From positions 124,001-188,000 of the forward strand of contig NZ_JYFC01000008.1 in NCBI RefSeq assembly GCF_000938265.1: a stretch of DNA of 64,000 bases, written 5' to 3'. The notes under the pieces are model-generated. The model was not told the origin of the DNA. It ran no database searches and worked only from the letters and a program-made list of their open reading frames with translations. This DNA is from Agreia bicolorata. GTDB taxonomy: Bacteria; Actinomycetota; Actinomycetes; Actinomycetales; Microbacteriaceae. Shown here one piece after another: positions 42,879-48,180 of the stretch (the stretch's first letter is position 1; each line of letters starts with the position of its first letter). Both the position numbers and the translations under genes were made by a program.

Positions 42879-43190
42879 CTACATCTCGAAGTAGAGGTGC
42901 GCGTGCAAGCTGCAGCGTTCATTGAAGGGTGCACAGCAGTGGAGGCACCGATCTGTCTTCAGGTACTCGTCTATGGTGAGCTCGCTCGAGCACGCCCCGC
43001 AGAGAATGGCTTTGGTGCGTCGCTCTCCGATCGGCCATTGCGTGGCCTGATGGGATTCTGCTTCTTCGTGACATAGGTGACACGGATAGTATCGGCCGCA
43101 GCACGCGAACTTGATGGCGATGATGTCTTTCGGCGTTCGGTAATGCACGCACCGCGTCTCGTCGTCTACCGTCTGGCCCCAGACCTTCAT
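42879..43190 (-). CDS. CHY zinc-finger protein
   Basis: 103-residue CHY-type zinc finger. RCVHYRTPKDIIAIKFACC, PCHLCHEE, CGACSSELTIDEYL and CLHCCAPFNERCSLH supply three clusters of Cys/His ligands as in the eukaryotic CHY/Pirh2 and Hot13 proteins; bacterial homologues have no settled role. GAGAGGA before ATG 43190. It overlaps bioN by four bases, so it is part of the bioY operon; its bases look somewhat poorer in GC than the surroundings. Function there is unknown. Confidence 0.88.
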   Translation of the reverse strand: MKVWGQTVDDETRCVHYRTPKDIIAIKFACCGRYYPCHLCHEEAESHQATQWPIGERRTKAILCGACSSELTIDEYLKTDRCLHCCAPFNERCSLHAHLYFEM

Positions 43191-43786
43191 GGCTCGATTC
43201 CTCTCGCACTCACCGCATCGGCGAGATCGTCGGCGTGCTTCAGCGACATGATGAGGAGAGGAACAGCGAAACTCAGCCGGTGGGGTGGAATGCCACGGGC
43301 TCGCTGTGCGTCGCGAATCGTTGCAGCGAAGCCTGCGATCACGGGAATGGAGGTGATGGTCAAGGCGAGGACAAGTGCCACGGCTTCGGGGCGTATACCG
43401 AAGCGGCGGAACGGTGCACAGGCGCGTTCGGTGGCGTCGAGAAGATCCGGTATGCGCGTCGTCAACGTGAACAGGGCCGCAAGAATCACTATCAGCGCCA
43501 CTCGCGCGGTGTTGGTCACGGCATCGATAGCGGGGAGAAAGAGCAATTGGGGCGCGAGCATGAACAGGATGATCCACCTGGCCGCGACAACCTGGCTCGC
43601 CAGCACCCGCGCGCTCAGTCCAGCACACGCGTATCCCGTCATAACGAAGGTCAACGCGGAAATGACCTGCCACAGGCTTGTGGTCGTTGTAGCGATAGCG
43701 AGAGACGCCCCGATGAAGCAGACGAGCTTGAGGCCCGTCGGCATTCGGTGAAGGACACTCGTTCCTGGCCTGTACAGGCCTATCAT
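43187..43786 (-). CDS. bioN: Biotin ECF transporter transmembrane subunit BioN
   Basis: 199-residue EcfT-type protein with about five membrane segments and the coupling motif region RDAQRARGI near 165 plus a second Ala-Arg-Gly motif SARGIEP at the end. It couples ATP hydrolysis by BioM to substrate-binding BioY. Start ATG 43786 overlaps the bioM stop (ATGA). Size and placement fit the BioMNY type; specificity rests on BioY and the regulator. Confidence 0.9.
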   Translation of the reverse strand: MIGLYRPGTSVLHRMPTGLKLVCFIGASLAIATTTTSLWQVISALTFVMTGYACAGLSARVLASQVVAARWIILFMLAPQLLFLPAIDAVTNTARVALIVILAALFTLTTRIPDLLDATERACAPFRRFGIRPEAVALVLALTITSIPVIAGFAATIRDAQRARGIPPHRLSFAVPLLIMSLKHADDLADAVSARGIEP

Positions 43787-44475
43787 GGGTGGCTTCTCTC
43801 GTATTCCGCGATGACCGCTCGGGGCTCTCCACATCGGCGCAGACGGCCCTGGTCGAACCACAACGCCGTGTCGCAGCGTTCTGCGAGGCGAAGGTCATGC
43901 GTTACCAGGACAAGTTGTTGGGGCATTTCGTCGAGCAGGTGATTGCTGATCCGCCGAGTGTTCGCGGCATCGAGGAGCGCGGTCGGCTCGTCGGCGACGA
44001 TGAGTTGCGGCTCGCTCACGAGAACGGAGCTCAGTGCGAGGAGCTGCTTCTGCCCACCCGACAAGCTGTGCGCCGCAGAGTTCTCGTGGTGTGAGAGGCC
44101 GTGGGTCTGGATCATGCGCGACACTCGTTCGTCGACTTCCGTTCGAGACAGCCCTCGTCCGCGAAGTGAGAAGGCGATGTCTTCGGCAACTGTCGGCATC
44201 ACGATCTGACTGTCGGGATTGCTGAAGATGAAGCCCACGCGGCGCCGTAGCAGCCGGGCCTGTCTGATGGGGTCGATTCCGTGCACTCTCACTTCGCCGC
44301 GGCTTGCGGAGGCCAATCCGTTGAGCAGTCGAGCGAAGGTCGACTTGCCGGATCCGTTGGATCCTATGACGGCGATACGTTTCTGATCGAGTAGAACGGA
44401 GACGTTGTCGAGTGCGGTCCTCTCGCCGAAGTCGACGGAAACCTGCCGAAACGAGATGAGCCGCTCAGAGTTCAT
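43783..44475 (-). CDS. bioM: Biotin ECF transporter ATPase BioM
   Basis: 230-residue ABC ATPase of the energy-coupling factor type. Walker A IGSNGSGKST near residue 36, Q-loop FSNPDSQIVMPTVAEDIAF near 80, signature LSGGQKQLLAL near 133 and Walker B LIVADEPTALLD near 153. It powers biotin import by BioY through BioN. ATG 44475 overlaps the thiolase stop by four bases. Confidence 0.92.
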   Translation of the reverse strand: MNSERLISFRQVSVDFGERTALDNVSVLLDQKRIAVIGSNGSGKSTFARLLNGLASASRGEVRVHGIDPIRQARLLRRRVGFIFSNPDSQIVMPTVAEDIAFSLRGRGLSRTEVDERVSRMIQTHGLSHHENSAAHSLSGGQKQLLALSSVLVSEPQLIVADEPTALLDAANTRRISNHLLDEMPQQLVLVTHDLRLAERCDTALWFDQGRLRRCGEPRAVIAEYERSHP

Positions 44476-45635
44476 CGGACGACCTCGAAGACTGCCGCGA
44501 CGCCCATTCCCCCGCCGATGGCAGCCGTCGCGAGGCCCAGCGCGCCGGCGGGTGCATCCTGTCGGACGAGCCGGGAGAAGAGACGGACGACGCCGACCGC
44601 CCCGGAGGCGCCCCACGGATGCCCGAGTGCCAAGGCTCCCCCGTCTGCGCACACACGCGGGTCGACCCGATGGCGATCCGCAAGGTCCAGCGATTGAAGT
44701 ACGGCGAGCGTCTGGGCCGAGAATGCCTCGACGATCTCGATGGCGGAGATCTGGGACAGGCTGACATTCGCGTCATGAAGCGCTCGGCGCACGGCGGCGA
44801 CAGGCCCTATGCCGGGGAGAGCCGGATCGCATCCGATCGTCGACGCGGCAACCAAGGCCAGACCGGGCGCGCCCTGTCGCGCGGAGCGCGGCACCATCGC
44901 GACGGCGGCGGCTCCGTCACAGATTCGGCAGGAGTTGCCGGCGGTGACGGTGCCGTCGGCGTGACCGGAAGCGTCAGCAAAGAGCGGAACGAATCGTGAG
45001 AGCAGACGCGACACGTTCTCGCGCGGTCCGTCGTCGTTCGCCACGCCGTCGACGGAGACGATCTCAGCATCGAATATCTGTCGCCTCTGCGCAGCAAGCG
45101 CACGTTGGTGGCTTCGTCTCGCGTAGTCGTCCTGGTGTGCCCTGCTGATGCCGAACATCTGAGCTAGAGCCTCAGCCGCTGGGCCCATCTCCGGGTCGGG
45201 GAATCCGGTCGGAGCGAACGGTGCCCTCGTGTACGGCGCACCCGCGATCAGCCGAAGCGGCGCTGTCGAGGCGCTTTCGACGCCGCCAGCGATGCGCATC
45301 CGGTGATCGCCGGCCCTGATGGCCTCCCCCGCCGTGATGATGGCTGAGAGGCCGCTGCCGCATTGACGATCGATCGACATTCCGGGAACTGACGAGTCGA
45401 GCCCCGCTGCCAGCGCGGAGATACGACCGATATTGCCTCCTGGACCCATGCAGTTGCCCAGGACGACGTCGGCGACCTGCGCCCGCTGCCCCGTCGCCGA
45501 CTCTGCATCGGTGACGCACTCGCGCACGACCGGGCCCGCCAGCTGTTCTGCGCCGAGGTGGGAGAGGCCGCCTCCTCTCACCGTGATGGGAGTGCGCCGG
45601 GCGGCGACGATGACAGCGGGTCCGTTGTCAGTCAA
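44472..45635 (-). CDS. Thiolase-family protein lacking two catalytic residues
   Basis: 387-residue thiolase fold. The nucleophilic Cys is present (DRQCGSGLSAI near 87), as is GHPWGASG near 346. The usual NEAFA is VEAFS (Asn to Val near 312) and the usual CIGGG is AAIGGG (Cys to Ala near 376), so both the oxyanion Asn and the base/acid Cys are missing. It can probably be acylated, but Claisen chemistry is doubtful. TTG 45635 is the best start: it overlaps the ligase stop and begins the family sequence VIVAARRTPI a few codons later. Not recognised beyond the fold; possibly an acyltransferase. Confidence 0.85.
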   Translation of the reverse strand: MTDNGPAVIVAARRTPITVRGGGLSHLGAEQLAGPVVRECVTDAESATGQRAQVADVVLGNCMGPGGNIGRISALAAGLDSSVPGMSIDRQCGSGLSAIITAGEAIRAGDHRMRIAGGVESASTAPLRLIAGAPYTRAPFAPTGFPDPEMGPAAEALAQMFGISRAHQDDYARRSHQRALAAQRRQIFDAEIVSVDGVANDDGPRENVSRLLSRFVPLFADASGHADGTVTAGNSCRICDGAAAVAMVPRSARQGAPGLALVAASTIGCDPALPGIGPVAAVRRALHDANVSLSQISAIEIVEAFSAQTLAVLQSLDLADRHRVDPRVCADGGALALGHPWGASGAVGVVRLFSRLVRQDAPAGALGLATAAIGGGMGVAAVFEVVR

Positions 45636-46878
45636 GGCGCCGGGCTTTCTTCTCGAGAGCACAGAGTCGGATCTGCGATCGGGCTGCTTTGCCCGTGCTT
45701 GTGCGAGGCATGTCCTCGGTCCAGAACCACCGTCGCGGAATGTGAGTGAGCGGAAGCCGAGCAGCCGCCTGCTCGCGGAGCCGCGCTGTCGACGGGCGTG
45801 AACTGCCCGGCGAGAACTGAACGAGCGCGGCGACGAGGGCTCCCGTTCTCTCGTTGGGTAGCCCGAAGACCGCCGCATCGTCTATGCCGTCGATGCTGCG
45901 CAATGCGGCCTCGACTTCGTCTGGAATGACCGTTGCGGAGCTGGTGAGGATGGCTCCGTCGATACGACCTCGAAGCATCAGTCGTCCGGAGGCATCGTTC
46001 TCCGCGCGGTCCCCAACGGTTCCCCAGCCCTCCCCGTCGACGCGAAAGGGTCCTCCGCCGTCTTCCAGATACCCGGATGCCAGATAGGCGGATCGGGCCC
46101 ACAGCTCCCCGCCCACGATGCGAGTCTGAACTCCGGGGAACGGACGCAGACCGAGGCCGTCGTCATCGACCGCGACGAACGACAGTTCGGCCGCGCCGTA
46201 ATAGCCGATCACCCGGATGCCCAGGGCCGCGCATCGTCTCCTCAGCGCGTGATCGAGGTGGTCGCCGCCGACGAGCGCGACTCGCATGCTGTGCGGCGCA
46301 CCGCCCTCGATCACCTCCACGATGGCGCGCAAGGATTGCGGCGTCGTGTGCACGACGGTGGCGCGAGTGAGATGTTCGGCCGACGACGACGGCCGAGATG
46401 GAAGAAGGATGCTCGCGCCCACGGATCGTGAGTGGGCGACCGAGAAAAGTGTCAGCGACGAAGCCAGCGGTGCGGGGACGTAGACCACGTCGTCGGCAGT
46501 GAGTGCAAGCAGATCTGTGACGGCGGCGAAGGACACTTGCCATGACGACGCCGAACGAAGAATCACTCGGGGTGCGCCGCTGCTGCCCGAGCTGAAACTT
46601 GCCCATGCCTTGTCTCCCCCGACACACTCGGCTTTCGCGTGCGAGCTGACTGCCGACCAGTACTGCGTGCTCCAGCGGCTGTCTCCCACGAGCGGCACTC
46701 CGCCCGCTTCGCGCACAGCGAGCAGAGCGACGAGCGCATCGGCCGCGTTGTCGTCGAGTATGGGGTGGATGATCCCGATTCGCGGGTCGTTCTCGGCGAC
46801 GAATCTGCTCACTCGTTCGTTCAGCTCAGCAGGGCCGATCGTCTTCGATCCATGGAGGATCGAGCCGGGTTTCGTCAC
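45628..46878 (-). CDS. AMP-forming acyl-CoA/acid ligase of the bioY operon
   Basis: 416-residue ANL-superfamily adenylate-forming ligase, shorter than the usual 500-550. Motifs: FSSGSSGAPRV near 95 (A3, with Arg replacing Lys), YYGAAE near 225 (A5), GTVGDRAEND near 289 (A7), GRIDGAILTSSATVIPDEVE near 303 (A8) and PRTSTGKAARSQ near 396 (A10 Lys). It should activate a carboxylic acid to an acyl-AMP and then a thioester; the acid is unknown. GTG 46878 overlaps the bioY stop, so expression is coupled. MenE-like in size; substrate not deducible. Confidence 0.87.
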   Translation of the reverse strand: MTKPGSILHGSKTIGPAELNERVSRFVAENDPRIGIIHPILDDNAADALVALLAVREAGGVPLVGDSRWSTQYWSAVSSHAKAECVGGDKAWASFSSGSSGAPRVILRSASSWQVSFAAVTDLLALTADDVVYVPAPLASSLTLFSVAHSRSVGASILLPSRPSSSAEHLTRATVVHTTPQSLRAIVEVIEGGAPHSMRVALVGGDHLDHALRRRCAALGIRVIGYYGAAELSFVAVDDDGLGLRPFPGVQTRIVGGELWARSAYLASGYLEDGGGPFRVDGEGWGTVGDRAENDASGRLMLRGRIDGAILTSSATVIPDEVEAALRSIDGIDDAAVFGLPNERTGALVAALVQFSPGSSRPSTARLREQAAARLPLTHIPRRWFWTEDMPRTSTGKAARSQIRLCALEKKARRLD

Positions 46879-47480
46879 GCAGTCACATCCGTATCCACCG
46901 GATGCTTCGGGTTGGTTCCGCGACTGAACGCCCGGGGATACGCGCGCCAGAGCGTGAGGGTGATGACTGTGGCAAGCACGGCTTTGACGAGGTCGCCAGG
47001 CAGGAAGACGGTGCTTGTCAGGGCTGTTTCGACGAGAGGAAGCCGGGTGACCAGAGCCTGGATCGGAATTCCGAAAGCGTAGACGACAAGGATGCCGCCC
47101 GTGACACAGGCAACTGCCGTGCGCCACCAGCGGGGCCTCTCCGAACCGACGGAAGCGATGGCGCCGATGACGACAACTCCGAAAATCCACCCGAGCAGGT
47201 ATCCCGCCGACGGACCCACGAACATGCCTGCACCGCCCCGACCGCCGGACACGATTGGTAGTCCGAACAGCACCAGCGCCTCGAATGTGAGTATTGCGGC
47301 TGCCCCGCGCCACGGGCCGAGAATGGTTCCGGCCAGCATCACTCCCAACGTCTGCAGGGTGATTGGAACGGCTCCCCCGAAGACGGGAACTGCTCCGGGA
47401 AGACCGAGAACCGCAATAAGAGCGGCGAAAGCCGCTACTCGCGTCGTGTCACGCACGTCCCAAGCCGCTTGTTTGAACAT
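46875..47480 (-). CDS. bioY: Biotin transporter BioY
   Basis: 201-residue BioY, the substrate-binding S component. Six membrane segments; QTLGVMLAGTILGPWRGA near 42 and GPSAGYLLGWIFG near 88 are family motifs. AAGG lies about 9 nt before the ATG. First gene of a six-gene operon in which all downstream starts overlap; a TAACAT box (47527-47522, minus) could be the -10, which would place the transcript start inside the second operator. Regulation by the divergent TetR gene product is strongly suggested by two operators in between. Confidence 0.95.
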   Translation of the reverse strand: MFKQAAWDVRDTTRVAAFAALIAVLGLPGAVPVFGGAVPITLQTLGVMLAGTILGPWRGAAAILTFEALVLFGLPIVSGGRGGAGMFVGPSAGYLLGWIFGVVVIGAIASVGSERPRWWRTAVACVTGGILVVYAFGIPIQALVTRLPLVETALTSTVFLPGDLVKAVLATVITLTLWRAYPRAFSRGTNPKHPVDTDVTA

Positions 47481-47494
47481 CGTCTGCCTTCACT

Positions 47495-47507
47495 TGAACA
47501 CCGTTCA
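47495..47507. promoter_or_regulatory. BioQ operator 1
   Basis: Perfect palindrome TGAAC-ACC-GTTCA, 15 bp from the bioY ATG. It matches the TGAAC-N3-GTTAC-type motif described for BioQ repressors of corynebacteria, with full symmetry here. Binding was not tested. Confidence 0.8.
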
Positions 47508-47547: not shown

Positions 47548-48180
47548 ATGACCACGAACGCTACCCCTTCGGCAAGACCACAGCGACATTCCCGGAGTGA
47601 CGTCGTCGATGCTGCGCTTGCGATTCTCGACGAATACGGTCTGCCTGATCTGACCATGCGTCGACTGGCGTTGACCTTGAACGTGCAGCCGAGCGCTCTG
47701 TATTGGCACTTCGAGAACAAGCAGACGTTGCTCGCGGCAGTGTCGGATCGAATCGTTCGTGGCACGCGCGTCGTGCACCATGGCGAAACCGACTGGGCGT
47801 CGGCCGTGCGCATCGAAGCCGAGGCGCTGCGGAACGCCCTGCTGTCGTTCAGAGACGGAGCCGAGGTCGTTCTGAGCTCCCAGGCTCTTGGTCTCGGGGC
47901 TGGTGAAGCCCTGGCACGACTCACTGCCGCAATTCACCTGGGCGACTTTGACGAACGCGTCGAACGAGCCGCCGCTGCAGCCTTTCTGCATTTCCTTCTC
48001 GGCCACGTCTCTCACGAACAGCAAAGGATCCAGGCGGACAGTCTGGGCGTCGTCATCTCTTCGCAGGGTGCGAAGCCGTCGGATGTCGACACCGAAGCAC
48101 GCCGTGAACGTGACTCGTTCGACTTCGGGGTGTCCCTGCTCATTGCAGGACTCGCTGTGCAGAGCGAGGTCGCCCGTTAG
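47548..48180 (+). CDS. bioQ: TetR-family regulator, BioQ-like
   Basis: 210-residue TetR-type repressor. The N-terminal helix-turn-helix (about 15-60) reads RSDVVDAALAILDEYG and then MRRLALTLNVQPSALYWHF; the C-terminal ligand half is helical. Divergent position to bioY and two palindromes matching the BioQ motif argue that it represses biotin uptake and itself. BioQ is thought to sense biotin status without binding biotin directly, so the effector here is open. Its 3' end converges with the ABC-F gene (18 bp between stops). Confidence 0.85.
   Translation: MTTNATPSARPQRHSRSDVVDAALAILDEYGLPDLTMRRLALTLNVQPSALYWHFENKQTLLAAVSDRIVRGTRVVHHGETDWASAVRIEAEALRNALLSFRDGAEVVLSSQALGLGAGEALARLTAAIHLGDFDERVERAAAAAFLHFLLGHVSHEQQRIQADSLGVVISSQGAKPSDVDTEARRERDSFDFGVSLLIAGLAVQSEVAR

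Follow-up and report, generated by a model that had tools for sequence, protein, structure and literature searches.

A putative acyl-CoA ligase and a thiolase-like protein encoded within a predicted biotin transporter operon of Agreia bicolorata

Organization of the locus

The 64,000-nucleotide stretch of Agreia bicolorata DNA analyzed here, termed the window (contig NZ_JYFC01000008.1, positions 124,001 to 188,000 of the forward strand), carries six genes at positions 42879-47480, all on the minus strand, which encode BioY, an AMP-forming ligase, a thiolase-like protein, BioM, BioN, and a CHY zinc finger protein. The subject of this report is the ligase and thiolase-like pair, which is placed inside the set of transporter genes and whose thiolase-like member retains the nucleophilic cysteine of thiolases and has lost the cysteine that serves them as the Claisen base. 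All five gene junctions overlap, by 4 nucleotides (nt) at bioY/ligase, 8 nt at ligase/thiolase-like, and 4 nt at each of the remaining three, which confirms for the whole interval the overlap at every junction described in an earlier note on this DNA. The features of the locus are as follows.

42879..43190, minus strand, CHY zinc finger protein, 103 amino acids (PF05495, 42.9 bits)
43187..43786, minus strand, bioN, energy-coupling factor (ECF) T-component (PF02361 CbiQ, 49.9 bits)
43783..44475, minus strand, bioM, ECF ATPase (PF00005; top NCBIfam model ECF_ATPase_1, under its cut-off)
44472..45635, minus strand, thiolase-like protein, 387 amino acids, TTG start (PF00108 and PF02803)
45628..46878, minus strand, AMP-forming acid:CoA-type ligase, 416 amino acids, short N terminus, GTG start (PF00501 and PF13193)
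46875..47480, minus strand, bioY, biotin S-component, 201 amino acids (PF02632, 122.5 bits, E 1.6e-35, above the cut-off)
47495..47507, BioQ-type palindrome TGAACACCGTTCA, site 1, exact match to the TGAAC-N3-GTTCA of PMC3398298
47510..47522, BioQ-type palindrome TGAACACCGTTCA, site 2, 15 bp from site 1, exact match
47548..48180, plus strand, divergent TetR-family regulator, BioQ-like (PF00440 and PF02909)

The six operon proteins each score above the Pfam gathering threshold (BioY, AMP-binding with its C-terminal domain, Thiolase_N/C, ABC_tran, CbiQ, and zf-CHY). BioY with the adjoining ABC ATPase and CbiQ-type T-component makes the set of BioMNY components complete, and biotin transport is the predicted function; the window bioY is the sole BioY match in the genome.

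Distribution in Microbacteriaceae

A close relative of the thiolase-like protein (E <= 1e-70) is found in 16 genomes of a family sample of 120, the window genome included, and the ligase is adjacent in all 16. The genes for BioY, the ligase, the thiolase, and BioM are together as in the window in 13/15 of the other carriers, the exceptions being G017 and G098, in which the ligase-thiolase pair is apart from bioYMN. The co-occurrence across Microbacteriaceae proposed as a check in the earlier note is borne out in part, with the pair adjoining bioY in most carriers and the carriers themselves amounting to only 16/120 genomes.

A genome of the same genus, G077 (locus L066), has tetR, bioY, bioM, bioN, CHY, and SURF1 genes in identical order at 76-90% identity with no ligase or thiolase gene, and its bioY and bioM are directly joined through an ATGA overlap. 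The pair therefore behaves as a cassette of two genes that can be removed, with gain or loss, in either direction, at a translationally coupled junction.

Distribution in public genomes

The wider set comprises 80 loci, the best 80 of 576 confirmed in a scan of public genomes with the patterns GHPWGASG and [VI]DRQCGSGL, which come from several actinobacterial families and one Rhodospirillaceae metagenome-assembled genome (MAG). L126 and L063 seem to derive from one genome, and G098 of the family sample is the same genome as L126. A profile search across the phylum, with a strict threshold and four candidates scored per genome, gives matches in at least 5/396 genomes, the window genome included.

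The ligase is beside the thiolase in 78/80 loci, the two misses beginning at a contig end, and bioY is near the pair in 72/80, where three of the misses are at contig edges (L082, L103, and L142) and five are real (L095, L099, L120, L126, and L137). The order bioY-ligase-thiolase-bioM/N is present in 68/80 loci. This recurrence, together with the common arrangement in the 13/15 family carriers, means that the gene arrangement is not due to chance. Two Micromonospora loci (L073 and L074) have the complete tetR-bioY-ligase-thiolase-bioM-bioN unit, and in a 38-row tree the L073 thiolase clusters with those of the window and Lacisediminihabitans (support 95/92) inside the Microbacteriaceae branch. 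Because of this placement the L073 locus suggests transfer of the whole operon between orders.

Related pairs are also present in Alphaproteobacteria in several arrangements. Azospirillum has bioM-bioN-bioY-ligase-thiolase, Sinorhizobium meliloti has bioM-bioN-bioY followed by a ligase match (where no gene is listed) and then the thiolase, and Paracoccus yeei has bioY-ligase-thiolase. The Pseudosulfitobacter ligase-thiolase pair adjoins a nitroreductase-bioY-T-ATPase group on the opposite strand, and the Rhizobium plasmids have thioesterase-ligase-thiolase with a divergent zinc-dependent dehydrogenase. A profile search finds bioY within the fetched stretch in 7/11 plasmid loci of the clade (L169-L173, L189, and L191).

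The rhizobial genes adjoining the pair encode a YbgC/FadM-like acyl-CoA thioesterase and a zinc-dependent, quinone/acrylyl-CoA-reductase-like dehydrogenase, and are placed in two arrangements (L172:8176-9559; L168:3026-4464 and L192:3026-4464). Both are like these families with matches under the family cut-offs, the thioesterase reaching 68.1 of 68.7 bits in L168 and 38.3 in L172. In Paracoccus and Pseudosulfitobacter (L170:8024-8695 and L173:8041-8724) a gene of the nitroreductase family with weak resemblance to BluB runs convergently to the pair, and the Pseudosulfitobacter locus also adjoins nadA/nadC and panB genes.

BioQ-type sites and regulation

The two BioQ-type sites lie between bioY and the divergent TetR gene, and no other exact site occurs in the 3.92-Mb genome, the reversed control giving 0. 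Shuffled copies of the window (n = 100) contain a mean of 0.05 exact sites, and 0/100 reach two. An exact site is present in 36/80 of the wider loci, with 53 sites in total compared with ~0.2 expected from base composition. Where the pair is unlinked, that is, away from bioYMN, an exact site is found no more than ~200 bp upstream of the ligase in 5/6 genomes (G017, L095, L099, L120, and L126). G017 and G098 each have one exact and one single-mismatch site, 15 bp apart, at the ligase start or shortly before it.

The window TetR protein fits the description of BioQ, being of the TetR family with TGAAC-N3-GTTCA sites at its target, and is predicted to bind in a biotin-responsive manner. The excerpted text of PMC3398298 gives TGAAC-N3-GTTCA as the predicted BioQ site and describes induction of Corynebacterium glutamicum bioYMN under biotin limitation, and in that of PMC6391492 the Staphylococcus aureus yhfS-yhfT promoter is repressed by BirA with a half-effect near 10 nM biotin in an Escherichia coli reporter. 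On the basis of the BioQ-type sites and of these two sets of data the operon is expected to be regulated by biotin shortage. The link of the pair to biotin is real, and the assignment of the ligase and thiolase to bioY in the earlier note is upheld by the single overlapping unit, by the BioQ-type sites upstream, and by the proximity of bioY in 72/80 loci.

The ligase

The ligase match to Pfam begins at position 87 of the 384-position model, in line with the short N terminus. The P-loop SG and the A10 lysine (GK) are invariant in the 16/16 family members, and in a wider set the lysine is present in 85/86 rows with a gap in the one remaining. From its two domains, P-loop, and A10 lysine the protein is assigned as an ANL acyl-CoA ligase, with acid activation as its predicted activity. 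The AlphaFold2 (AF2) model has a predicted local distance difference test (pLDDT) value of 88.9, and the nearest solved folds are MenE-type ANL ligases, at ~20% identity; a role as a menaquinone ligase was set aside because the gene sits in a biotin operon. The top NCBIfam model is PRK07638, which we take to be the model of YhfT, with a score of 128.7 bits compared with a cut-off of 518, and the protein is only the fourth-best PRK07638 match within its genome.

Seven Rhodococcus/Nocardia loci (L138, L140, L143, L145, L146, L147, and L150) have a second AMP-ligase of acyl-CoA type after bioN; the one tested (L145:8225-9700) scores 217.5 bits with PRK07638, above the window ligase. Together with the resemblance of the window ligase to generic acyl-CoA synthetases, this gene favors a biotin-sparing lipid salvage. 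In such a salvage, biotin shortage would impair acetyl-CoA carboxylase, and the demand for malonyl-CoA would be lowered through activation of exogenous or recycled fatty acids by the ligase and processing of their acyl-CoA by the thiolase-like protein. Increased membrane fluidity under biotin limitation in an S. aureus bioA mutant, as given in the excerpted text of PMC12642757, is in agreement with such a role. In the 68/80 loci, however, the pair is flanked by bioY and bioM/N within the transporter operon, and it is rare in the family (16/120). Beyond the second ligase no operon gene, and no fatty-acid gene among them, recurs in the actinobacterial neighborhoods as judged by a crude gene call, which overlooked the thiolase in 19/80 loci. 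Lipid salvage is regarded as possible and rather doubtful.

The thiolase-like protein

The AF2 model of the thiolase-like protein (pLDDT 83.5) has a thiolase fold with MSM-13 and 8gqj as the nearest structures (template modeling score ~0.84, 35-37% identity). Its top NCBIfam model is PRK06690, presumably the YhfS model, with 312 bits compared with a cut-off of 498, and the protein is the clear best PRK06690 match of the genome. The functions of the catalytic residues in the Zoogloea thiolase are given in the excerpted text of PMC3406046, where Cys378 takes the proton from the substrate and the oxyanion hole is made up of Asn316 and His348.

Window residues Cys92 and His339 are the equivalents of Zoogloea Cys89 and His348 and are both retained, as they are in 16/16 family members selected without a pattern and in 88/88 rows of the wider alignment. 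As 80 of these 88 rows were picked with patterns that include Cys89 or His348, the choice of patterns itself fixes the Trp following GHP and, in part, Cys89 and His348; the patterns do not cover Cys378 or Asn316. The Cys378 position is occupied by Ala in the window and by Ala in 55, Ser in 26, and Gly in 6 of the 88 rows, with a gap in one (L076), and Cys378 is also absent from 4/4 further alphaproteobacterial rows, giving a loss in 91/91 readable rows. The Asn316 position (NEAF motif) is Val in the window and Val in 71, Thr in 9, Asn in 6, and Met in 2 of the 88 rows; the Asn is kept in L148, L168, L169, L171, L172, and L174 and in 3/4 of the added rows, and all nine are on one branch of the tree. 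Control thiolases, comprising both further full-length thiolases of the window genome and nine plasmid-encoded ones, carry Cys, Asn, His, and Cys at these positions in 11/11 cases and are split from the BioY-type clade with a support of 100/100 in the 38-row tree. Two thiolases from the plasmid searches, a Peribacillus protein in an aromatic-type cluster and a Limosilactobacillus protein, are ordinary by the residue check.

The window clade shares the fold, the nucleophilic Cys, and the GHP His with type-1 biosynthetic and degradative thiolases (Z. ramigera, FadA, and MSM-13) and differs from them in the absence of Cys378 and, in 82/88 rows, of the Asn316 equivalent. MsTLP1 of Mycobacterium smegmatis likewise combines a thiolase fold with altered catalytic motifs, but as described in the excerpted text of PMC3406046 it has also lost the nucleophilic Cys, which is kept here. 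Because the nucleophilic Cys is kept while the Claisen base is gone, the chemistry is likely to be a non-Claisen acyl transfer: the acyl group is expected to be taken up as an acyl-enzyme and handed on with no condensation or cleavage of the carbon chain. A change of Cys378 to Ser reportedly altered the partitioning of the acetyl-enzyme in a 1992 study of thiolase. The motifs of the two proteins are thus consistent with the acyl activation and transfer suggested in the earlier note, and the shortening of an acyl acid by thiolysis, offered there as a further option, is unlikely with the base gone in every readable member.

Cys62, in the motif GNCMGPGG, was considered as a relocated catalytic cysteine and rejected as not general, the residue being Cys in 79 of the 88 rows, Ala in 8, and Thr in 1. 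The six members of the 88 that keep Asn316 have Ala at residue 62.

A ligase and a thiolase are the classical beginning and end of beta-oxidation, and catabolism of biotin, in which the ligase makes biotinyl-CoA and the thiolase joins beta-oxidation of the valeryl side chain, would also accommodate the zinc-dependent dehydrogenase-type gene near the rhizobial pair. However, the base for thiolysis is absent, expression is expected under biotin shortage from the BioQ-type sites and the S. aureus data, and the crude gene call reveals no recurrent dehydrogenase or hydratase beside the pair in actinobacterial loci, which together make catabolism highly improbable.

Biotin synthesis genes

Searches of the window genome with curated cut-offs give a best bioB match of 31.6 of the 225 bits needed, no bioD match, and bioA-model matches that reach 309.7 of the 405 bits needed with none over the cut-off; the bioB model finds C. 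glutamicum over the cut-off as a control. Neither bioD nor bioA is over the cut-off in any of the 17 genomes searched. Sub-cut-off bioA-model matches of up to 316.6 bits are present in 17/17 and look like related aminotransferases, and because these matches exist bioA is the least certain absence. In the family sample bioB is found in 2/120 genomes, the carrier G070 and the non-carrier G078, and is not over the cut-off in 14/15 of the other family carriers. In the wider set, where 50 of the 80 genomes were searched, 15/50 carriers have bioB and 35/50 show none; six of the 50 genomes are MAGs, and the completeness of the genomes behind these absence calls is unstated.

With bioB, bioD, and bioA not over their cut-offs, and bioF outside the search, A. 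bicolorata is a probable biotin auxotroph. As 35/50 carriers show no bioB, the pair is not dependent on de novo biotin synthesis, and in the window genome it very probably cannot feed that pathway, so that the supply of a pimelate-type precursor raised in the earlier note is not supported there. The corresponding explanation, in which BioF is supplied with a pimelate-type acid that the pair makes or activates, would suit the 15 carriers that have bioB and the Firmicutes, whose pair is in biotin prototrophs, of which Bacillus subtilis is one. Biotin biosynthesis in S. aureus is covered in the excerpted text of PMC12642757. The missing Claisen base, the lack of bioB over the cut-off in the window genome and 14/15 other family carriers, and the lack of bioD and bioA over the cut-off in 17/17 genomes, where bioA-model matches do not exceed 316.6 bits, leave precursor supply with very little likelihood.

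Relation to known systems

A yhfT-yhfS pair in S. aureus and B. subtilis is biotin-regulated together with bioY, and the S. aureus genes are described as putative fatty-acid ligase and acetyl-CoA acetyltransferase homologues, according to excerpts of PMC6391492, PMC7235819, and PMC11089781. YhfT-YhfS is thus a gene pair of like type, biotin-regulated and tied to BioY, and its presumed models PRK07638 and PRK06690 are those best matched by the window proteins. The window proteins however score under both curated cut-offs, and the window pair is inside a bioYMN operon with BioQ-type sites in a probable auxotroph. As the scores are under the cut-offs and the ligase is only fourth in its genome, the window pair is, by sequence comparison, similar to the curated YhfT/YhfS families and not a member of them. 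The C. glutamicum bioYMN/BioQ system shares the bioY-bioM-bioN operon and the predicted TGAAC-N3-GTTCA site and, unlike the window, is described in the excerpted text of PMC3398298 as bioYMN without a ligase, thiolase, or CHY gene.

A limited search of the open-licence literature, in the excerpts it returned, contains neither an operon-embedded pair with BioQ sites in Actinobacteria or probable auxotrophs nor a clade-wide loss of Cys378. The proposal of an undescribed system in the earlier note is accordingly reduced in scope by the yhfT-yhfS pair of S. aureus and B. subtilis, for which repression by biotin has been described, and would apply to the form with a BioQ-site operon.

Other actinobacteria make antibiotic biotin analogues, including actithiazic acid, alpha-dehydrobiotin, and stravidin types. 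The pair could serve in detoxification by activating and destroying such analogues, admitted by BioY whenever uptake is on, a role with which the patchy, cassette-like distribution, co-expression with the importer, and independence from biosynthesis genes are all compatible. A hydrolytic or oxidative step would however be expected, and the regulation of the S. aureus and B. subtilis pair by BirA is harder to reconcile with detoxification, so that this role is considered unlikely.

Proposed role of the operon

The reading we favor, which is plausible and somewhat short of probable, is that the operon is a biotin-shortage salvage unit of a probable auxotroph, in which the pair activates a biotin-type acid imported through BioY and transfers the acyl group without Claisen chemistry. 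Low biotin would relieve repression by BioQ, and BioMNY would bring in biotin or a carboxylic acid related to it. The ligase would adenylate the imported acid and convert it to a CoA thioester, thereby trapping it, and the thiolase-like protein would load the acyl group on Cys92 and hand it on, by acyl transfer or release by hydrolysis, with no C-C bond made or broken. In rhizobia the thioesterase-like gene beside the pair would release the free product acid. The module would serve salvage or retention and not de novo synthesis. The expected expression of the genes at low biotin speaks for salvage rather than catabolism, and the missing downstream genes speak for it rather than precursor supply.

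A more specific form of this proposal, which is possible and held more tentatively, is a biotin-vitamer salvage or retention step in which the ligase makes the CoA thioester of biotin or a relative imported by BioY and the thiolase-fold protein is a dedicated acyltransferase; it would also explain the BirA-regulated yhfTS of Firmicutes. To our knowledge a two-enzyme CoA-activation and acyl-transfer step for a biotin vitamer is on no known pathway map.

Several observations weigh against the salvage reading. An exact BioQ-type site is absent from 44/80 loci, the unlinked pair of L137 has no such site even with one mismatch allowed, and no BioR-like box is seen in the alphaproteobacterial stretches. 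BioY is found in 109/120 family genomes compared with 16/120 for the pair, which is therefore not universal, and bioY is missing from the 13 kb retrieved for four Rhizobium plasmid pairs (L168, L174, L190, and L192). The 15/50 carriers with bioB leave room for a biosynthetic role in those genomes, and the second ligase of the seven Rhodococcus/Nocardia operons is not explained by a simple model. The loss of Cys378 is no proof of lost condensation, as another residue, for example Cys62, could be the base. The activated acid could be biotin, a biotin vitamer, or, as the main rival, a fatty acid.

The locus ties the pair to biotin import in Actinobacteria and Alphaproteobacteria and places it where biotin probably cannot be made, with a "thiolase" that is without the base for thiolase chemistry. 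The import link, the probable auxotrophy, and the missing base narrow the role to one that a few direct enzyme assays could address, and caution against annotating the thiolase-like gene as an acetyl-CoA acetyltransferase.

The CHY zinc finger gene

The CHY gene at the end of the operon is present in 17/80 related loci. It remains beside bioYMN in G077, where the pair is missing, but accompanies the pair in Mycetocola (L063, L099, and L126).

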